A stretch of DNA of 64,000 nt, taken from positions 62,001 to 126,000 of the forward strand of contig JACRIM010000034.1 of assembly GCA_016235815.1 (NCBI GenBank), in the 5' to 3' direction. Under the pieces are notes generated by a model that was not told the origin of the DNA, did not search any database, and was given only the letters and a program-made list of their open reading frames with translations. The DNA comes from Planctomycetota bacterium (GTDB lineage Bacteria > Planctomycetota > Phycisphaerae > UBA1845 > UTPLA1). The first letter of the stretch is position 1; every line of letters starts with the position of its first letter. The position numbers were made by a program, and so were the translations under genes. Of this stretch, positions 53,348 through 64,000 are shown piece after piece.

Positions 53348-54199
53348 TCAACGAAGGGCAGCGCAGGTGTCGACGACCTGCCGAATTTCCTTGACGTCGT
53401 GGACGCGGAGCATCTCCACGCCGGCCAGGGCACAGTGGGCGGCAACGGCAACGGTGCCCATCAAGCGGGCCTTGGGGTCGTCCTCGCCGAGGAGTACGCC
53501 GAGGAACTTTTTTCGCGATGGGCCGACAAGTACCGGCCATTTTCCCCGAAACGAGCGAATCGCACGGAGTAGTGCGAGGCTGTGTTCGGTCGTTTTTCCG
53601 AATCCGATGCCGGGATCGATCATCATCTGTGCGACATCGACACCGGCACGCTCCAGTTCACGAGCGCGCTGGTCGAAGAACGCGGATACTTCGGCCACGA
53701 CGTCGCGGTACATCGGGTTGGCTTGCATCGTTTCCGGCGTGCCCTGCATGTGCATGGCGACGAAGGGAACGCGGCGGGCCGCAAGTAGCGCGGGCATCGC
53801 GGGGTCGTGTTGGGCGGCGGAGATGTCGTTGATGATGTCGGCGCCGGTATCGAGGGCGGCCTCGGCGACGGCCGCGAGGCGCGTGTCGACGGAAATTGGA
53901 AGCGTTAGGCCTGTCGCCCGTAGTTCGCGGATCACCGGCACGATGCGGGTGATTTGCACATCGGGGGGCACGGCGACGGAACCCGGCCGGGTGCTTTCGC
54001 CGCCGATATCGATGAGATCGGCACCTTCACGTTGCATGGTGAATGCACGGGCGACGGCGGACTTCAGCGATGCGAACTCGCCGCCGTCGCTGAAGCTGTC
54101 GGGCGTGACGTTGAGGATGCCCATGATCAGCGTTCGCGGGCCGAATGTGAGCGTGCCGTGTGCAGTCGGCCACGAGCGGATGTCACCTTGCGTTGACAT
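53348..54199 (-). CDS. folP: Dihydropteroate synthase
   Basis: 283 aa, usual length. It joins pABA and dihydropterin pyrophosphate in folate synthesis and is the sulfonamide target. Motifs are IMGILNVTPDSFSDGG, DIGGESTRPGS, SVDTRLAAVAE and a C-terminal SRKKFLG. ATG 54199 is chosen; a longer reading frame has no ribosome site. The stop lies two bases from that of the convergent transferase gene. Confidence 0.95.
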   Translation of the reverse strand: MSTQGDIRSWPTAHGTLTFGPRTLIMGILNVTPDSFSDGGEFASLKSAVARAFTMQREGADLIDIGGESTRPGSVAVPPDVQITRIVPVIRELRATGLTLPISVDTRLAAVAEAALDTGADIINDISAAQHDPAMPALLAARRVPFVAMHMQGTPETMQANPMYRDVVAEVSAFFDQRARELERAGVDVAQMMIDPGIGFGKTTEHSLALLRAIRSFRGKWPVLVGPSRKKFLGVLLGEDDPKARLMGTVAVAAHCALAGVEMLRVHDVKEIRQVVDTCAALR

Positions 54200-54256
54200 G
54201 CCGGGATGATAGGCTGAGGCGAAGCGGAGTCCTAATCTCCCGCGAGCGAGAGCTAC

Positions 54257-56569
54257 TTGAAGAACCCTTCGGACACAGCGCTCCAAGCCGACGCGAAATC
54301 GCGCGTGATTGTCTGCGCATCCATCGTCTTTATCGCGGCCGTGGCGTGCATGTGGCCGGCGGCGAAAGCGACCTTTGTCTCGGGCGACGATGAGCGGCTG
54401 ATCCTGAACCACCTGCTCGTAAATCATCCAACGCCGGGCCACGCGTGGACGGTGCTGACCAGGTTGACGGATGATCTGTATCAGCCGATCCCGATGATTT
54501 CGTTTCAATTGAATTATGCGCTGGCGGGAGCGGACGCAGACGGTCGTTTTCCGGTGAGCGCGCGGGGGTTTCACGCGACGAATCTGATGCTGCACGGCGT
54601 GTGCGCGGTCCTTGTGTTCTTCGTCGTGCGACGGATTGCGGGGTGTACGCGCATCGGGTTTGTCACGGCGACGTTGTTCGCATGTCATCCATTCGCGGTG
54701 GAGCCGGTGGCGTGGATCAATGGTCGGATGATCCTGCTGGCAACGCTGTTCGCGCTGCTTATGATCTGGCTACGAATTCGCGAGGGGACGCCGTCGACCG
54801 TGGTAGCGGTGATCGCGTGGGCGGCGTCGGTGGCGTCGAAGGTGGTACCGACGATGCCGATTACGGCGATGTGGTGTGAGTGGCGCGTGCGGGGGCGACT
54901 GGTTCGGCGTGACTGGATCGCGTATGGAACGATGATCGCCATTGCGGCGGGCGGAACGCTGCTGGCCACGAAGACCACGATAGACGCGGCGGGCGAAGGG
55001 GATGCCGGTGGAGCGTCCGCGTTCGTGCGTGTGGCGATGGCGTGGCGATATTATGTTGAAAACTATTTCTGGCCCACACGCCTGTGCGCCTGGAGCCCGC
55101 CGTCATTGGGAGTGAGTGCGAGCGATCCGCGTGTGATGATTGCAATCGCCGAGGCGTCGGCATTTACGATTGCCATGTGGTTTTTTCGGAAGAGGAATCC
55201 CGCGGCGTTTTTTGGCATTGGCTTCTTTGCCATCACGATATTGCCGTTTCTTGCGGCGGGGACAACGCGGCGCTTTCTCGCGGCGGATCGGTACATGTAC
55301 CTTCCGATCGTGGGGCTGCACTGCGCCGTTGCGGCGATTTGCGTTCAGACCTTTGACCGACTTCGCAAACGACTTTCGTTCGCGCGTGCGGATAAGGTAG
55401 TGGGATGGCCCTTAGCAGCCGCCGTACTCGCGAGTTTCATGTGGAGTCACCGGTTATGCGATACGTGGGCGGACTCGGTTCGCCGTGATGAGCGAGTCGT
55501 CGCGGTGAACCCGACCGAACCGGACGCCCATGCACAGTTGGCGAAGGCCTATCTCTTTCAACGCGACCCCGATGCCGCGCTTCGCGTTATTTCATCGGCG
55601 CGGGCGACGCTGGTTGAGAACGGACGGCTCGCGGCGGCGGCGGGGGAGGCCTATCGCCAAAAGAGAGACTTTGAGTCGGCGGAGCGCGAACTACGGGTTG
55701 CCGTTGAGAAACTTCCCGAGCACACGCGGACGAATTTTCTCTTCGCGTTGACGTTGGAGGATCGTGGGCGGTATGCCGAGGCGACCGCACGGTATCAAAA
55801 GCTAGTTGCGACCAGTCCTGAGTTTCTGCCGGCGCTGACGGCATTGGCGCGCTGTCACCGGCGCGATGGTCGTGTTCAGGAAGCAACGACGCTTTATGAG
55901 CGCGCGCTGAAAATAAATGAGAACAATGTTGAGAGCCTGCGAGGTCTGGCGGGCATTCTAATGGAGTCAAAGCAGGATGACCGGGCATTGAAACTGTTAC
56001 AGCACGCTGCGCGGTTTGACATGAGCGACATAACCGCGATGACGTGGCTGCACACTCTCCTGGTGGAACATGGGCGCGGCACCGAGGCCGCGGCCATCTG
56101 GGATCGTGTGCTCACGGTTTCAGGTCGAAGTGATGAAGTGCTCGCATGGCGGGCGTGGGGAGAACTTCACGCGGGGAGAAGCCCGCGACCGTTTGTCGAG
56201 CAGGTCGCGCGTGCGCGGCCGGAGCGGAACTTCGCTGAGTGGGCCGTCGTGGTGGAGGCGTTGGGCCGTGGCGATGAGGACGCCGTAAAGCGCTTTGATT
56301 TGGCGGTTCCCGTTGGCGCGGATGTTGGGTCGAATCGGACGGAGAAGCGGCGTTTGATCGTGTCCGCGATTGGAACGATGCCGGGGAAAGTCTTAACGAC
56401 TCCTGCTGCCATGTATCTTGTGGCGCGGGCGTTTGTAATTGACGGACAGGTGGAGTCAGCGAAGAAGGCGGCAACCGTCGTGCTTCAGTCGGCTGACCCC
56501 TTTTGGCGCGATTTGGCGTTGCGGTTGATGCGAACCGCGTCAACTACGGAGCAATCAGAGCCGCATTGA
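54257..56569 (+). CDS. Membrane glycosyltransferase with TPR domain (TMTC-like)
   Basis: 770 aa. The N-terminal half has about eight to ten membrane helices with the TMTC/DUF1736-type motif HPFAVEPVAWINGRMILLATLFALL and RYMYLPIVG; the C-terminal half (about 410-700) is tetratricopeptide repeats. TMTC-type proteins transfer mannose to extracytoplasmic proteins in animals; the bacterial relatives are uncharacterised. The start is TTG 54257 with no good ribosome site, so the exact start is uncertain. The last 26 bases overlap the convergent NPCBM gene. Confidence 0.7.
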   Translation: MKNPSDTALQADAKSRVIVCASIVFIAAVACMWPAAKATFVSGDDERLILNHLLVNHPTPGHAWTVLTRLTDDLYQPIPMISFQLNYALAGADADGRFPVSARGFHATNLMLHGVCAVLVFFVVRRIAGCTRIGFVTATLFACHPFAVEPVAWINGRMILLATLFALLMIWLRIREGTPSTVVAVIAWAASVASKVVPTMPITAMWCEWRVRGRLVRRDWIAYGTMIAIAAGGTLLATKTTIDAAGEGDAGGASAFVRVAMAWRYYVENYFWPTRLCAWSPPSLGVSASDPRVMIAIAEASAFTIAMWFFRKRNPAAFFGIGFFAITILPFLAAGTTRRFLAADRYMYLPIVGLHCAVAAICVQTFDRLRKRLSFARADKVVGWPLAAAVLASFMWSHRLCDTWADSVRRDERVVAVNPTEPDAHAQLAKAYLFQRDPDAALRVISSARATLVENGRLAAAAGEAYRQKRDFESAERELRVAVEKLPEHTRTNFLFALTLEDRGRYAEATARYQKLVATSPEFLPALTALARCHRRDGRVQEATTLYERALKINENNVESLRGLAGILMESKQDDRALKLLQHAARFDMSDITAMTWLHTLLVEHGRGTEAAAIWDRVLTVSGRSDEVLAWRAWGELHAGRSPRPFVEQVARARPERNFAEWAVVVEALGRGDEDAVKRFDLAVPVGADVGSNRTEKRRLIVSAIGTMPGKVLTTPAAMYLVARAFVIDGQVESAKKAATVVLQSADPFWRDLALRLMRTASTTEQSEPH

Positions 56570-57689
56570 GCAGATTCACGCGATCCTGAATGTGGGCCGA
56601 TTTGCCGACTCCGACCTCAATCGTAAGTTCGTTCACGCCGGAAACGCCGATGTCCACGTTTCGACGAGGCAAATTCGTCGCGAGATCTCGATGCTCCGCG
56701 GCCTTGCGTCCATCCAACTTGATAATCACCTCGGCATCGGCCATTGCGCCTGCGGAGTCGTCCATTGCAAGTTGGCACCGGAAATGTTGATAACGGCCGC
56801 CGAGGTTCCATGTTGCCTTGCATGGAGCGTGCAGGCCGATTCCGCGACGATAGACCTGTCCCTGAACGGTGAGCGGATCGCCGATGGCGTTGGCGTTCAC
56901 TTGCATGGGCCATTTCTTATCAAAGTACGGAGTGCTTTCGTATCGCGCGGGGGCAAGATCGCTAAGCCAGATGCGACGATAGCCGTTGATCTCAATTCGC
57001 GCGGCACGGTCGGCAGGGATCGTGGCGTTTCCGAACGAACCTGTCGCCATGATTCTGCCATCCGACCATTTCAGTGATTCAGCGCGGAGTTGAGTCCCGT
57101 CGATGAGCGTAATTTCGGCGCTCGGACCGGCGAGTTGGTGCCGATTAGCCTTGGCGAGTATCACGGCCTGCACGGACTTCCACGGAAGGGCGCGGTCCGT
57201 GCCGTTGATATTCATGGTCAGCTCATCGCGGGCGAATCGGGCAATGCTGCCGCGCGGGGCATCGCCGGAGAGGAGGAGCGTGACATCCTCGTCGGCGGGC
57301 GGGGCGAGACGCCGAGCCGAGACTGACGCGCGATGAATGGAAGCGATCGCATCAATATCAATTCGCAGGGTTTCCAGCACACGAGAGTTCACGGAAAACG
57401 ATTGGTCGTCGCCGCCGGCCGGGTCGGCGAGGATGGCGGAGCCGTCGTGCAATTCGATGATCCAGTCGGCGTGGGTCGGCGAGGTTACCGCAGGCTCCAG
57501 GGTAACAACGTCGATGTCAGCCGCGGCGAAAGCCTGACCGTCGGCGAGCCTGATGCCCTCCGTGAGCGTCCATGAGCGAATCACTCCCTTAATGGGCTTG
57601 CCATCCAATGGAGTGACGGTCACCGGGGCGGCGTCGACGCGGCCGGACGCAATCAGGCAAAGAACGAAGAGTGAGGTTCGCACAGTCAT
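56544..57689 (-). CDS. Secreted NPCBM domain protein, last gene of envelope operon
   Basis: 381 aa. Signal peptide at 1-20 (ends RVDA). Two repeated beta modules, and in the C-terminal 150 residues an NPCBM domain (GIGLHAPCKATWNLGGRYQHFRCQLAMDD), a carbohydrate-binding module found on glycosidases. It may hold a polysaccharide on the cell surface. It is coupled to the previous gene by a four-base ATGA overlap. Confidence 0.75.
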   Translation of the reverse strand: MTVRTSLFVLCLIASGRVDAAPVTVTPLDGKPIKGVIRSWTLTEGIRLADGQAFAAADIDVVTLEPAVTSPTHADWIIELHDGSAILADPAGGDDQSFSVNSRVLETLRIDIDAIASIHRASVSARRLAPPADEDVTLLLSGDAPRGSIARFARDELTMNINGTDRALPWKSVQAVILAKANRHQLAGPSAEITLIDGTQLRAESLKWSDGRIMATGSFGNATIPADRAARIEINGYRRIWLSDLAPARYESTPYFDKKWPMQVNANAIGDPLTVQGQVYRRGIGLHAPCKATWNLGGRYQHFRCQLAMDDSAGAMADAEVIIKLDGRKAAEHRDLATNLPRRNVDIGVSGVNELTIEVGVGKSAHIQDRVNLLNAALIAP

Positions 57690-58735
57690 TTCTGAAAGAT
57701 CGGCATCGTTTCTTTAGGCATCTGAAGAATGATCATGGCCATGGCGGTTCCGTATTCGGTGCCGGCTTCGCCGCGCCAGGAGCCGTCCGGAGCCTGCTTG
57801 GATAGTAACTCGTCGCGGATTGCGGGCCACCATTCGGCCCAGTGCTGGCCGCCAGCGAGGTGCATGGCCTGCGCGGCGTAATAGTGGCCATAGTAATAGT
57901 GCGTCTGTTCCTCGGTCTTGCCCGGGATGAATTTTTTCAGATACGCAACGCCGCGGCGCGTGCTGCGGTCTTCGTAGATTCCGGCGTAATAAAGCGACGC
58001 GACGCCCGCGGCCGATCGGGCGAACATCGATCCCGACGAATCGAGCATGTAACGAAAGCCGCCATCCGGGTTCTGGCTGTCCTTCACGTATTGGATCGAA
58101 CGATCAATGACGCTCTTGGGCACTTCGACGCCGGCGTTGCGGGCGGCGCGAAGGGCCATGACCTGACAAATGGTGACGGAGATGTCGGCATCGGCCTTTA
58201 CGGGGTGATAACGCCAACCGCCGCGATCATTTTGCGTGCGCACGATCAGTGCGACGGCCTTTTGCAATTTCTCGCGCAGATCGGCGCGCGGAGACATGCC
58301 ATACATCTCGGCGAGAAAGAGCGTTGCGAAACCGTGCCCGTACATCGGGCCGTAGGACGTTTCGGCGGCAATGAGGCCGGATTGATCGCTGCACGAATTG
58401 AGAACGAAGTTCAGGCCGTTTTCGACGACGCGCGAGTAAGGTCCTCGACCGGGGACGCTGCCGTCGCTGACGAACGCCATGCATGCGAGCGCGGTAATGC
58501 CAACGTGGCGACCATATTGCGATCCGCTGCCGAACGAGCCGTCGGGTTGCTGTTGTGCGGCGAGCCAGGCAAGGCCTTTGTTAACGGCGAGTTGGATGCG
58601 CGCTCGGTCATCGTCCGCACGGACGGGGCTTTGCGGTCGGTCGGCGGCAGGTTGCGATGTGGCGGGTTGAGCAATGAGTCGGGAGACGCCAAGCAGCGTA
58701 AAGAGCGCGAGGACGAGACGGGTAATGCGAACCAT
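57686..58735 (-). CDS. Prenyltransferase/squalene-cyclase-repeat protein
   Basis: 349 aa. Signal peptide (ends about LIAQ) then the alpha/alpha-barrel with repeated QPDGSFG, NDRGGWRY, NPDGGFRY and APDGSWRG motifs. It lacks the terpene-cyclase DXDD acid, so it is more likely a surface or binding protein of the same fold than a cyclase. Part of the coupled minus-strand operon, four-base overlap with the NPCBM gene, and three bases from the gene before it. Confidence 0.75.
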   Translation of the reverse strand: MVRITRLVLALFTLLGVSRLIAQPATSQPAADRPQSPVRADDDRARIQLAVNKGLAWLAAQQQPDGSFGSGSQYGRHVGITALACMAFVSDGSVPGRGPYSRVVENGLNFVLNSCSDQSGLIAAETSYGPMYGHGFATLFLAEMYGMSPRADLREKLQKAVALIVRTQNDRGGWRYHPVKADADISVTICQVMALRAARNAGVEVPKSVIDRSIQYVKDSQNPDGGFRYMLDSSGSMFARSAAGVASLYYAGIYEDRSTRRGVAYLKKFIPGKTEEQTHYYYGHYYAAQAMHLAGGQHWAEWWPAIRDELLSKQAPDGSWRGEAGTEYGTAMAMIILQMPKETMPIFQK

Positions 58736-58738
58736 GTG

Positions 58739-59392
58739 CTATTTGTTCTTCTCGGCAGCCTGAGCCAGGTCGCGATAGTAACGGATGATCTCTTCGCGGT
58801 ATTTTCCGAGGAATTCTTCGTCGAAGCCCTGTGACACCTCGTGACGATCCTTCAAAGGCAGGTAGCCCCAGCCGCGGGTCAATTCAGCCTTTTCGTCGGC
58901 GCGGGATCCTGCGGGCTTTTTGTCGTTGCCGGGTGCACCCATGCCCCCCTTCGTGCTTTTCCCGGGGTCGGGGGCGTTGGAGCGTTTTGCAGTCTGCTGA
59001 GGCTTTCGATCTCCGGGCTTGGGGTCGGCGGGTCGGCGGGCCGACTGTTGTTGGCTGCTTGAGGAGTTATTCTTACGGGCCTGTTCGATGAGCTGGTCGA
59101 TTCCCGCGACGATTCGGCGCTGCATCTGTTGAGTTTGCTGGCCGACGTCGCGTTGGTCGGCGATGCGCGTGGCGGCGGATTTCATGTCGGAGAGCGTGGC
59201 GTCGACGGTGTCGAGCGTGGAAGACTCGCCGCCGAGTAGCTTCTTGACGAGATCGGGATTGACGGCGCGGCGGGTTGTCGGTTGCGAGGCCGGTGCGGAG
59301 GTCGTCGGCTCGGCCGATACGCCAAAAGGGATCGCAGCAGTCGCCACGACGAGAAGCAGCGCTTGAAACAGCCACGATCGCGCACAAGTCAT
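58739..59392 (-). CDS. Hypothetical secreted low-complexity protein of envelope operon
   Basis: 217 aa. Signal peptide (ends about GVSA), then Ser/Gln/Pro/Lys-rich low-complexity sequence (SSSSQQQSARRPADPKPGDRKP) and a C-terminal amphipathic domain (LPLKDRHEVSQGFDEEFLGKYREEIIRYYRDLAQAAEKN). The tail FDEEFLGKYREEIIRYYRDL looks like a conserved interaction motif. Translation starts inside the previous gene by a four-base overlap. Confidence 0.6.
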   Translation of the reverse strand: MTCARSWLFQALLLVVATAAIPFGVSAEPTTSAPASQPTTRRAVNPDLVKKLLGGESSTLDTVDATLSDMKSAATRIADQRDVGQQTQQMQRRIVAGIDQLIEQARKNNSSSSQQQSARRPADPKPGDRKPQQTAKRSNAPDPGKSTKGGMGAPGNDKKPAGSRADEKAELTRGWGYLPLKDRHEVSQGFDEEFLGKYREEIIRYYRDLAQAAEKNK

Positions 59393-62300
59393 TGGGCCCC
59401 TGCCTTCTCGATCATCGTCTGGGCAATTTCCTGGATCTTCCGTTGTCGTGCACCGAGGACGTCGATTCGCTTTTGTGGATCGTCCGCCGGATTCGCGGTC
59501 GACATTGCTTTTTCGAGAGCGGTCGTGGCGGAGTTCAATTCGGTTTGGAGCAGTCGAAGTATTTTCAGTTCCGCAAGCGTCGGCACAGGGTTCGCGGGCG
59601 TCGGCTTGCTCGGCCCGCCACCGCCGGAATTCTCGGAGGCGAAGCGCGGGTCGTCATTCTTTGAGCGTTCATCAACCGCTTCGATCAGTTGAGTCAGGGC
59701 GCGGAGTGCTGCATCCTGTTTGTCGAGTGCCGGCGTGGCGCGACGGGCCGTAAGTTCTTCGACAGCCGATTTCATCGCCTCTGCGACTTCGCCGCACACA
59801 TAGTCGTACACGACGGATTTTTCGACCTTGGTTCGCACGTTCGCCAATGGCTCCAGCAGCGACTCCTGATCCTTGGCGATTCGGTTCAATGCAAGGGCAT
59901 CGGCGCGAGGGACGGTATCACGATCCTTCAATCTCGCCTCGATTGTGGCGGTTTGATCGCGGAGCGATGCCTGCCGTCTGCGAAGCTCCTTCAGCGATTC
60001 GATGATGGCAGCCATGGATTTTTCAGCGAGTTGACTCAGGGCCTGGTCTTCGATTTTTTCCAGCAGGGCAACCACTTTGGCAAGCGATTCCAGCGCGCCA
60101 CGCTGGGAATCCTGGGCCTCGACGGCCTCGGTGTCCTTCAACCATGTCACCGCCGAGGTCATGTGGTCGGCCGCGGCCAACAGTTCGTCTTTTGCCTCCT
60201 CGGCTTCGGTTCCGTTGATCTTCATCGACTCTGTCAGGGTACGCGTTGTGTTTTCAACGCTGGCCTGCCGATCCGCGAGTAGGGTCATGCGCGAAGCGAC
60301 ATCTTCGGTTCCGCGGGCGTCGCTGGTCTTCTTACGCAGGTCCTCCTGAACGGCGATGATTTTCGTGAGTTTGGCGCGCAGGTCCTGCACGTGTCGTGAC
60401 AGTTGCTCCAATTCGCGCCTTGGCTTCTCCCGAAGTGCAACGAGCATGGATCGCATGACGGAGGCGGCGCGTTCCTGACCGGCCGATGCTTCAATAAGGC
60501 GCGCGGCGCGAACGGCCTCGGCTGACTCCGTCATGGTTGGGAGAAGACTTCCCTGCCGGGCCGTCTGGGCGGCGCGCGTGAGCGACTCGGCGGACGGCCG
60601 ATCACGATCTTGCAGTTGCGATGCCAGAGTATCCATCGCGGAGAGCAGCTTCGCCGCGTCGGTCTGTGCGACCGATTGATCGGCGGCGATCATGGCCGAG
60701 TCCTTGGAGATGGAGTCGGGCGGCTGTTTCATCAGTCGCGCGGTGCGTCGGACAAGCCCTTCCTGGCCGTCGATGAGATCGTGCAGCTTGCGAACCATCT
60801 CATCGAAGCTGTCCCACTGTTCCACTTCGTCAAGCATGGAGCGAAGCCCACCAGCTGCACGCTCCAACCCGTCGGACGATTCATGCAGGCGGTTTCGGCG
60901 CTCGGCATCCGACGTTGGCCGTTCGAGCCCGGCCAGGTTTATTGTGGCGCGATTCACACCGTCGCGGACCGCGTCGCTCAGTCGTTTCGCGAGCCGTTGG
61001 GATTGTCGTGCAGCATCGGAGTCTGCCGTCTGGTTCATTTCCGCCCGGTGATTGAGCTGGGCGAGTCGACGGGACGCCTCGTCAACCTGTTGCGCAAGGC
61101 GACGTGCGTCGGCCGTTGCCCGCTCGGTACGTTCGCGGCGTGCTTCATCGGTGGAAGCCCCGGCCTTCAACTGATCGATCTGTCCCCGAATTGCCTCCAG
61201 CGCGGAAAGCATTTTTCGGAGGCTGCCTCGCATGGTCAACACATCCTGGCGAAGCCGCTCGGCAAAACGCTCGGGCGAGACGATGTTGAGGCGCATCACG
61301 GCGGAGCGGGCAGGTTTGTGACGGTTCCCGTGCCACTCGTAGAAATCGGCAGCCTCGGCGACGTAGTCAATCGTGTCGCCGACGGCGGGCTTTCGTGGCG
61401 CGAGGTTCCATGCCAGAGTTCCGGTTTGTGTCACCAAAGAACCCGGCGACGAACTGGAATCATTGTTCAACGGGATGTCGCCAACAAGGCTGTACTCGCC
61501 GGATTTGCTTGAGGCGAGGAGCGAGATACGGGCGATGCCAAGATCGTCTTCAGCGCGAATGAGCACGTCGACGGTTGCGGTGGGGGTGACCTCCAGCGGG
61601 CCGGTGGGTTCCTTGATCGCCACAGCGGGGAGACGGTCGGGCACAACGTCGAGTTGATAGCGCGGGCCTCCGCGCGATTCGAACTTGCTCTCATCGACAA
61701 GCACGACTTCAAATGCGCAGTCTTCATCGATTTCCATTTCGATGGACCCGGTGGTGCCGACGGTGTCGGCGTTTCGAAGCGGGAGCACGATACCGGATTC
61801 GAATACCACCCGAGACGCCGTGGCCGCCTCGCCGAAGGTGACGTTCTTGTCGGCGAGGACATCAAGGCGGATTCGGCAGCCTCGAACGAGCGAGACACGT
61901 GGGTCGCTCAGGTGATGTTCGTGAACGGGCAGTTGCGATGCATAGGGCGGCGGAGTGATTGTCAGCATCGCCGAGGCGACCGTCGGGCGTTTGACGAGTC
62001 TTAGCGCGCCGGGCCGATCCGATGTGTCGTCGTCGCCCGCCGAGAAGTAATAGGAAACGTCGGAGGTGAGCCGTTCAATCAGTCGGCGATACACGCCGTC
62101 GGGGTCACGCCGCATCATGGCTTTTTCGAGCGGCCGATTGCCGCTTCGCCAATGAATGAAGCCTCGCAGGTTGGGATCGTCGCCGCGCGTCAGATGCATT
62201 TCGGCGGTGAATGTTTCGCCGTGGGCAACGAGCATGTCGCCGGTCAGCGGTTCAATTTGTGTTGACTTGGGCCACTGAATGTCGGCGAAGGGCGTCACGA

Positions 62301-62844
62301 TTCGTTTTTGACCGATCGACAGCCATTCAGGGAGCTTTGCGGCTGCCAGGAAAAGGGAGCCGATCAGCGCCGCGACAGCGACGGTTGAACGGATGGCTCG
62401 TCGCGGGTTGATGCCGAGTGAGAGATTAAGTTGGCCGGCCTCTTCGCCGGCGTCGACGGTGGCGCGCGACCAAAGAGCCGCATCACCGTCGCCCGCACCG
62501 CCAAGGTGGGCGACCGCGCCGGCAAGGCGATCGCGCTGGTTCTGCGTCAGTGTCGGCAACGACAGAACGAGCTGATCCAATGCAATCGGCCTTAGCAGCG
62601 GCCGCCAGATGCGCTTCCAACTCCAGCCGATTGTCCAGATGGCCGCGGCGGCCAGGAAACTCGCTCGCACCAACGGCGGAAAATGAACCCACCAATCCAG
62701 CACGGCAAGCAGGGCAAAGGTACCCATGATCGCGGCGACCAGGCGCGACACGCCGTCGACAACGAGCACGACGCGCAAGCGGCGGCGAAGTCGCACGAGG
62801 GAACGTATCAGGTTGTTCGGCTCACTGGTCACACGTAGCTCCAC
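59389..62844 (-). CDS. Large membrane-anchored coiled-coil protein (DUF4175-like)
   Basis: 1151 aa. Two or three N-terminal membrane helices (about 30-50, 58-75, 150-170), beta-rich extracytoplasmic domains (about 190-500), then a long coiled-coil tail (about 540-1140) rich in Glu, Gln and Arg. It resembles DUF4175-type proteins found beside MoxR/vWA genes, a similarity I could not test. Probably a periplasmic scaffold. It starts one base after the upstream gene ends and overlaps the downstream gene by four bases. Confidence 0.7.
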   Translation of the reverse strand: MELRVTSEPNNLIRSLVRLRRRLRVVLVVDGVSRLVAAIMGTFALLAVLDWWVHFPPLVRASFLAAAAIWTIGWSWKRIWRPLLRPIALDQLVLSLPTLTQNQRDRLAGAVAHLGGAGDGDAALWSRATVDAGEEAGQLNLSLGINPRRAIRSTVAVAALIGSLFLAAAKLPEWLSIGQKRIVTPFADIQWPKSTQIEPLTGDMLVAHGETFTAEMHLTRGDDPNLRGFIHWRSGNRPLEKAMMRRDPDGVYRRLIERLTSDVSYYFSAGDDDTSDRPGALRLVKRPTVASAMLTITPPPYASQLPVHEHHLSDPRVSLVRGCRIRLDVLADKNVTFGEAATASRVVFESGIVLPLRNADTVGTTGSIEMEIDEDCAFEVVLVDESKFESRGGPRYQLDVVPDRLPAVAIKEPTGPLEVTPTATVDVLIRAEDDLGIARISLLASSKSGEYSLVGDIPLNNDSSSSPGSLVTQTGTLAWNLAPRKPAVGDTIDYVAEAADFYEWHGNRHKPARSAVMRLNIVSPERFAERLRQDVLTMRGSLRKMLSALEAIRGQIDQLKAGASTDEARRERTERATADARRLAQQVDEASRRLAQLNHRAEMNQTADSDAARQSQRLAKRLSDAVRDGVNRATINLAGLERPTSDAERRNRLHESSDGLERAAGGLRSMLDEVEQWDSFDEMVRKLHDLIDGQEGLVRRTARLMKQPPDSISKDSAMIAADQSVAQTDAAKLLSAMDTLASQLQDRDRPSAESLTRAAQTARQGSLLPTMTESAEAVRAARLIEASAGQERAASVMRSMLVALREKPRRELEQLSRHVQDLRAKLTKIIAVQEDLRKKTSDARGTEDVASRMTLLADRQASVENTTRTLTESMKINGTEAEEAKDELLAAADHMTSAVTWLKDTEAVEAQDSQRGALESLAKVVALLEKIEDQALSQLAEKSMAAIIESLKELRRRQASLRDQTATIEARLKDRDTVPRADALALNRIAKDQESLLEPLANVRTKVEKSVVYDYVCGEVAEAMKSAVEELTARRATPALDKQDAALRALTQLIEAVDERSKNDDPRFASENSGGGGPSKPTPANPVPTLAELKILRLLQTELNSATTALEKAMSTANPADDPQKRIDVLGARQRKIQEIAQTMIEKAGAQ

Positions 62845-62845
62845 G

Positions 62846-64000
62846 TCACGGCAATCCGCGCGTCTTGCGAACGATCCATTCGGCGATGATGAGTACGGCG
62901 AAGAGCACCACCATCACCGGTTTATCCCACAATGGCTCTTCGATGTCGTCGGGAATCTGCACGCTGCGATCCGGAATCTGCGCGGCCAGCGCGGCGAGAT
63001 CGTCGCCAGGCTTTGCAAAGCGGCCGCTCGTACGAGAGGCAATCATCCGAAGAAGCTCCGGATCGGCCTCGGGGCGAAGTCGTTCGTGATCGATCTGGGT
63101 AACACGAATGGCTGCGCCAAGTTTCTTGCAACCGTCGGTCTGTTCGGGCAATTGCGGGATAAGGTCGTAGTGGCCCGGCGCGTCGGCGGCGAAGTCGGCT
63201 TCGAAGTCGCGCGACCCGGGATGGGTGGGACGCAGGGCGACGCGCTGCGTGAGGCCGAGTTGCGCCTCCATGACCCGGAGCGTCATGTCGCCGACGTCGG
63301 TGGAAAGCACGCTTTCAGCGCCGGTGAGGCGAACGTGAACTCGCTGGCCGACCTCGTAATTGCGACGATCGACGTCAAGACGCCACGGGCAATCGGCGCC
63401 GAGGCGCCGATTGCGGGCGAGGGTGCGGATGATTCGAAGCCAGAGGGCCTCGTACTCTTGTTCACCGATGGATTGTCTCCAGCGCCAAAGATCATCCGTG
63501 CCGAGATAGAACGTTCTGCCGGCGCCGGCTCGTCCGAGTACGGCCAGCGGCATTGAGAGTGCCGCTCCGGTTGTTGTGGGATGCGTGAGCAACACGGTCG
63601 ATGCCGGCTGCGGGCCGAGCACGCGGGCGAACCAATACCACCCGGTGCCGGAGCCGACCCACTGGTCGGAATCATCATCGGCGGCGAGACCGAAGAGACC
63701 GCTCTGACGGCCCTCAATCGTCAGTTTCGGCGCATAGGTCTCGGCGATGCTTTGTTCGTAGCGGCCAAGGAATTCTGGGTCGATGCGAACGGGGAGCAGC
63801 TTTTCAAGCGGGGTCTGTCTCAGCCGGTGGGGCACGAACGATTCGCCCGCAATGAATGCGATTCCGGCCCCTTGTTGAGAGACGTGATCGGCCAGCATGG
63901 CGAGTTGCACGGGGCTGATCCAATCGCCGCGCGGGTCAATGTCGCCGAGGAGGATCACGTCGTAAGGTCGCAATTCCTCAACACTTTGGGGGAATCGACG
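62846..64000 (-). CDS. Envelope operon first gene, C-terminal part, runs off the window
   Basis: Open reading frame continues past the right edge, so the N-terminus is missing. The visible part begins (R)RFPQSVEELRPYDVILLGDIDP, a GATase-like Rossmann domain typical of membrane proteins encoded near vWA/MoxR genes, followed by beta domains and a C-terminal membrane helix (DKPVMVVLFAVLIIAEWIVRKTRG). It is probably a membrane scaffold protein of the operon. The stop is one base before the next gene's start. Confidence 0.65.
   Translation of the reverse strand, partial: RRFPQSVEELRPYDVILLGDIDPRGDWISPVQLAMLADHVSQQGAGIAFIAGESFVPHRLRQTPLEKLLPVRIDPEFLGRYEQSIAETYAPKLTIEGRQSGLFGLAADDDSDQWVGSGTGWYWFARVLGPQPASTVLLTHPTTTGAALSMPLAVLGRAGAGRTFYLGTDDLWRWRQSIGEQEYEALWLRIIRTLARNRRLGADCPWRLDVDRRNYEVGQRVHVRLTGAESVLSTDVGDMTLRVMEAQLGLTQRVALRPTHPGSRDFEADFAADAPGHYDLIPQLPEQTDGCKKLGAAIRVTQIDHERLRPEADPELLRMIASRTSGRFAKPGDDLAALAAQIPDRSVQIPDDIEEPLWDKPVMVVLFAVLIIAEWIVRKTRGLP

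Follow-up and report, generated by a model that had tools for sequence, protein, structure and literature searches.

The RL3499-RL3502 operon of Rhizobium leguminosarum, reportedly described by Vanderlinde et al. in 2011, is said to include a MoxR of the MRP type. The rhizobial BatA-type gene carries DUF4159. Together with vWA partners, MoxR proteins serve as chaperones or remodelling factors (PMC3893208; NorQD, PMC13036017), and in NorQD, MoxR pulls on its vWA partner (PMC13036017). In Rhizobium, membrane integrity and cell morphology depend on the MoxR protein RL3499 (PMC3893208), and RL3499 and RL3500 were classed as growth-impaired in a transposon screen (PMC5118466). The locus described here, from a member of the Planctomycetota, carries the same kinds of upstream genes followed by four genes for membrane-anchored or secreted proteins.

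An eight-gene operon headed by MoxR

The window (the whole stretch of 64,000 nucleotides that was analysed, bases 62001-126000 of contig C15 in a genome of 4.58 Mb) ends in five minus-strand genes that nearly abut, with successive gaps of +1, -4, +3 and -4 bp. In the order of transcription, these encode the C-terminal part of a vWA/GATase-like protein (62846-64000); BIG, a protein of 1151 aa (59389-62844), after a gap of 1 bp; LC, a low-complexity secreted protein (58739-59392), whose gene overlaps that of BIG by 4 bp; TOR, a toroid protein (57686-58735; SQHop_cyclase_C E=9e-11), after a gap of 3 bp; and NPC, an NPCBM protein (56544-57689; NPCBM E=3e-23), whose gene overlaps that of TOR by 4 bp. 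The preliminary description of this DNA had reported that the genes touch or overlap end to start and had named the squalene-cyclase fold and the NPCBM domain, and it was correct on each of these points.

The edge of the window cuts the vWA/GATase gene, leaving only the C-terminal 384 of 790 aa inside; in window numbering the gene runs on to 65218 (L005:7347-9719). Outside the window and directly upstream on the same strand are genes for a BatA/vWA protein of 705 aa (65197-67314), a DUF58 protein of 306 aa (67330-68250) and a MoxR protein of 402 aa (68270-69478), the last of which heads the operon. The gaps vWA/GATase-BatA, BatA-DUF58 and DUF58-MoxR are -22, 15 and 19 bp, respectively. MoxR, DUF58 and vWA genes were therefore present past position 64000, where the preliminary description had proposed to look for them, and the likeness to MoxR/vWA clusters that it had remarked on was borne out. 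Its five-gene operon was right as to the five touching genes and wrong as to the size of the unit, which consists of eight same-strand genes in the order MoxR-DUF58-BatA-vWA/GATase-BIG-LC-TOR-NPC.

The gene upstream of MoxR is divergent, and the 3' boundary is set by a convergent gene (54257-56569, plus strand) that overlaps the NPC gene by 26 bp. This neighbour encodes a 770-aa multi-TM protein with C-terminal TPRs. The dihydropteroate synthase gene at 53348-54688 (minus strand; Pterin_bind E=1e-84) is listed with a start that is probably too far upstream. Promoter- and terminator-like patterns within the operon were no more frequent than in shuffled sequences, in scans that are weak in this group of bacteria; at this chance level, nothing points to internal transcription units.

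MoxR matched AAA_3 (E=7.5e-64) and AAA_lid_2 and contains the motifs GVPGLAKT and ADE. The DUF58 protein (domain E=4e-41) has an intact DxSxS MIDAS motif, DCSES. DxSxS is also present in the BatA/vWA protein, which matched BatA (E=5e-15), TIGR02226 and VWA_2; BatA and VWA_2 were its sole domains above cut-off, and DUF4159 was not found. What had been called a GATase-like membrane protein does reside in the membrane, with two N-terminal TMs and one at the C-terminus, but its identity is that of a vWA protein (VWA E=1e-5; MIDAS motif DRSAS) whose GATase-like domain is degenerate (GATase1_like E=0.004, below cut-off). The profile of this family matched the Shinella homologue over its full length (E about 1e-66). 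Across the families, DxSxS was conserved in 34/37 DUF58, 58/69 vWA/GATase and 33/55 BatA proteins, counts that include several proteins that are contig fragments. For both membrane vWA proteins, the positive-inside rule suggests a cytoplasmic location for the loop that joins the first TM to the second, and hence a periplasmic one for the vWA and GATase-like domains.

A MoxR and vWA pair is also a feature of the MoxR-vWA ternary conflict (defence) systems known in multicellular bacteria, planctomycetes included, and the Pfam bpMoxR model scored 41 bits on this MoxR against a cut-off of 27 (PMC7159879). AAA_3 scored far higher, however (214 bits), and the operon lacks variable effectors as well as a third component of the VMAP, iSTAND, FtsH or propeller kind. 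Its wide distribution and clade-wise conserved layouts, described below, also speak against a conflict system. The missing third component and effectors together with the distribution rule out membership in the class, and we regard a role in defence as highly improbable.

The BIG, LC, TOR and NPC proteins

BIG has three N-terminal TMs, an Ig-like part and a long coiled coil, consistent with the coiled-coil membrane protein of 1151 aa first reported; a positive-inside reading of the N-terminal TMs suggests that the Ig-like and coil parts are periplasmic. Profile comparison further places BIG as a divergent member of the DUF4175 (PF13779/TIGR02302) family. PF13779 gave 40.3 bits summed along the frame, compared to a cut-off of 27.3, and hhalign of 11 BIG proteins against 6 alphaproteobacterial DUF4175/TIGR02302 proteins gave a probability of 98.5% (E=2.5e-15) in an alignment that runs collinearly through the TM, Ig-like and coil regions. 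DUF4175 was not listed by single-protein hmmscan of the window BIG, and HMMER with one Shinella DUF4175 sequence matched the coil region alone. A coiled-coil false positive was ruled out as the source of the family match because the Ig-like and TM parts align too. In many genomes BIG is split into two genes, BIGN and BIGC.

In LC proteins, a conserved helix with the sequence TQxxQExxLxxLDxLI is followed by a linker rich in Q and, at the C-terminus, by the motif WGxLPxRxRxxL...YYRxLA. In four genomes LC is joined in frame to the C-terminus of BIG (family f2; probability 99.9%, E=4e-31). The idea that LC corresponds to part of the tail of alphaproteobacterial DUF4175 proteins was not supported (probability 17%). 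The N-termini of the window LC, TOR and NPC read as Sec-type signal sequences, and most members of the three families have a hydrophobic N-terminal stretch, with a lipobox in few.

TOR is secreted and belongs to the squalene-cyclase superfamily, with one alpha/alpha barrel. The AlphaFold2 model (mean pLDDT 89.9) is all-helical with 12 helices, and a profile search returned squalene-hopene cyclases and other class II cyclases, followed more weakly by TED domains and prenyltransferases. Relatives at 68-77% identity were mostly from Phycisphaerae MAGs, and the source of the window is therefore most probably a member of this class. Where the profile alignment shows DXDD or DVED in the cyclases, TOR reads DxSVT, with S186 conserved at 97% and T188 at 90%. 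Since Ser replaces the catalytic Asp/Glu, TOR is predicted to be non-catalytic and cyclase chemistry appears unlikely. Two identities were rejected: a squalene/hopene cyclase, given the absence of DXDD and one barrel instead of two, and a thioester protein of the complement/A2M TED type, given that no CGEQ-type Cys and Gln three apart were found and merely an adjacent CQ is conserved. Zinc ligands were not evident in TOR.

Were TOR nevertheless active as a terpenoid or hopanoid cyclase or a transferase, the operon would modify envelope lipids and the MoxR/vWA proteins would act as a maturation chaperone. The superfamily relationship is clear, the polar and aromatic residues W174, Y176, R196, Y229, Y282 and Y286 are strongly conserved, and enzymes are matured by MoxR/vWA pairs elsewhere. 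The change from Asp/Glu to a nearly invariant Ser at the DXDD-equivalent position, the presence of one of the two cyclase barrels, the secretion signal and the lack of an evident thioester motif or zinc ligands weigh against an active enzyme, which we consider improbable.

NPC is secreted; its N-terminal region is of a repeated beta type, and the NPCBM domain lies at the C-terminus. This domain hints that NPC might bind glycans, and the preliminary description's proposal of glycan binding outside the membrane draws on it. The proposal is weakly supported: Pfam recognises NPCBM in just 6/13 NPC relatives and glycan binding is thus unsafe as a general claim.

Conservation and layouts across genomes

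BIG was encoded by 104/148 genomes drawn across the phylum Planctomycetota, and TOR was found in 49/61 genomes of the class Phycisphaerae. At 76 BIG loci from 72 genomes, LC was downstream at 47, vWA/GATase upstream at 47, a same-strand TOR no more than 7 kb away at 53 and NPC downstream at 20, all of which are lower bounds since many of the loci lie on short or cut contigs. Genes at these loci were called profile-first, as greedy longest-ORF calling misses genes in high-GC loci. Tight spacing was kept: the BIG-LC gap was -4 or -1 in 13/21 cases and the median LC-TOR distance was 2 bp. The window order from BatA or DUF58 to NPC was repeated in Phycisphaerae records and in Planctomycetales ZRK34. 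That order and short overlaps recur in distant genomes argues that the touching genes are more than chance. An order confined to this genome, which the preliminary description had named as a reason to give up its proposal, was not what we found; the order is conserved beyond it, with clade-specific variants. The planctomycete operon appears to be ancient and phylum-wide in recognisable variants.

In addition to the window's gene order (layout A), we distinguished BamB-TOR-MoxR...NPC (layout B) and MoxR...-BamB-TOR-BIGN-BIGC-LC-TOR (layout C), and further layouts exist. The vWA/GATase tree separates the layout types, five labels requiring 5 changes compared to 26 in shuffles. TOR may lie ahead of MoxR, ahead of BIG or after LC, so a strict complex stoichiometry is not implied. 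In a Pirellula-like layout (L084, L087, L090, L092, L106; also L049), BIG-LC is kept, as is vWA/GATase where detected, and TOR and NPC are absent after it, indicating that these two are not obligatory. In Verrucomicrobiota, vWA-BIG is followed by a TOR-like stretch.

Several loci differed in other ways. Many planctomycete versions include a large PQQ/BamB-like propeller, often with TPRs, which lies between vWA/GATase and TOR at L052, L062, L094, L104, L113 and L133, and in one case (L071:1-2655) a gene for an HtrA-like trypsin/PDZ protease follows NPC. On the 81-kb plasmid pPL62-3 of Planctomyces sp. SH-PL62 (L154, 551-13523), near parAB, the order is DUF58-BatA-vWA-three hypotheticals-NPCBM, and the operon can thus be plasmid-borne. 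Two records look misassigned: L126, labelled 'Cyanobacteria bacterium', groups inside Phycisphaerae, and L143, labelled 'Akkermansia muciniphila', which looks very GC-rich, is a near-match to a different Verrucomicrobiota bin.

The same genome contains a paralogous ten-gene operon of layout B (G000:C28:26700-45665; L053, L162), with genes for a BamB-like/TPR protein of 1540 aa, TOR, MoxR, DUF58, BatA, vWA/GATase, BIGN, BIGC, LC and NPCBM, in that order. The window copy and this copy fall on different deep branches of the vWA/GATase tree. Two of the three TOR genes and two of the three NPCBM genes in the genome are inside its two MoxR operons, which argues against chance linkage.

A genuine Bat (Bacteroides aerotolerance) operon is found elsewhere in the genome (C41, L055) and consists of MoxR, DUF58, BatA, BatB, TPR and BatD. 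Bat operons guard against oxidative and heat stress (PMC11834572) and have MoxR, DUF58, BatA-N and vWA proteins in common with the locus studied here, which might then be an ordinary Bat stress operon with the downstream genes as passengers. Yet BatC (TPR) and BatD are absent here, and the downstream genes are conserved and hence not passengers. Membership in the Bat class is ruled out by the two absences and the separate Bat operon, and we give a stress operon with passengers little chance of being the right account.

The mobility of TOR and NPC, and their absence from some clades, would also be expected if the four upstream core genes alone made up a machine and BIG, LC, TOR and NPC were co-transcribed with it yet had roles of their own, such as structural proteins of the cell surface. 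The position of alphaproteobacterial DUF4175 next to lysA, outside a MoxR operon, is compatible with this. Clade-wise linkage across the phylum, the translational overlaps and the BIG-LC fusion weigh against it, and separate action seems unlikely to us, if somewhat less so than the Bat or active-enzyme accounts.

Proposed function and comparison with known systems

With a probability of roughly 0.55, the eight-gene operon encodes an ATP-driven trans-envelope chaperone or remodelling machine related to Rhizobium RL3499-RL3502. Its product most likely maintains or remodels the cell envelope, and the BamB-like propeller and HtrA-like protease of other layouts, both of envelope type, were counted in favour of an envelope machine. 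The single membrane-spanning complex suggested in the preliminary description is supported as an inference by the TM and charge pattern, the Sec-type N-termini and the in-frame BIG-LC fusion.

In such a machine, MoxR, a cytoplasmic AAA+ protein, would work with the cytoplasmic vWA protein DUF58, and their conformational work would be passed across the membrane by way of the BatA-like and vWA/GATase-like proteins, with their putative periplasmic MIDAS domains, to BIG. The Ig-like and coiled-coil part of BIG would form a periplasmic scaffold, of which LC would be a detached C-terminal piece. TOR, a barrel without the catalytic acid, and NPC might be periplasmic binding modules that hold a client, which would probably belong to the cell wall or the outer membrane. 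The output would be envelope integrity and cell shape, as with RL3499-RL3502, most likely achieved here through a larger periplasmic arm. More tentatively, some lineages may keep at least two ancient paralogous versions per cell of a machine powered by MoxR from the cytoplasm, in which the dead cyclase barrel and the DUF4175 scaffold carry the client beyond the inner membrane; we put this forward as a possibility rather than an expectation. If true, bacteria with unusual envelopes would possess an energised device for envelope assembly that forms a class of its own.

Envelope building and cohesion in planctomycetes are poorly understood, and specific genes for study are provided by a phylum-wide operon that couples a cytoplasmic AAA+ motor with a number of secreted proteins not yet characterised. 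The MoxR/vWA context found for DUF4175, so far an orphan family, and for a squalene-cyclase barrel predicted to be non-catalytic narrows the possible functions of both. No published description of the eight-gene arrangement in planctomycetes was found in the literature searched, most of it available without subscription, and genes for MoxR, DUF58, von Willebrand, squalene or aerotolerance functions go unmentioned in the main text of the essential-gene paper on P. limnophila.

Compared to squalene-hopene cyclases, TOR is secreted, has one barrel and has lost the catalytic acid, while sharing the alpha/alpha barrel and QxxDGSW repeats with the superfamily, which has single-domain members (MstE). 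BIG aligns with alphaproteobacterial DUF4175/TIGR02302 proteins over the TM, Ig-like and coil regions, but it is longer, is encoded in a MoxR operon rather than beside lysA, and has a tail in the form of a separate LC or is itself split. The RL3499-RL3502 operon has the same four-gene upstream core (MoxR, DUF58 and two membrane vWA-type proteins), and in Shinella, a relative of Rhizobium, the DUF58, BatA-like and vWA/GATase-like genes stand in a row as they do here; unlike the planctomycete operon, the Shinella genes have no BIG, LC, TOR or NPC alongside. DUF4159 of the rhizobial BatA-type protein is missing from the planctomycete counterpart, and we therefore file the planctomycete operon not as a strict copy of RL3499-RL3502 but as a variant within the MRP-type class of MoxR/DUF58/vWA operons.
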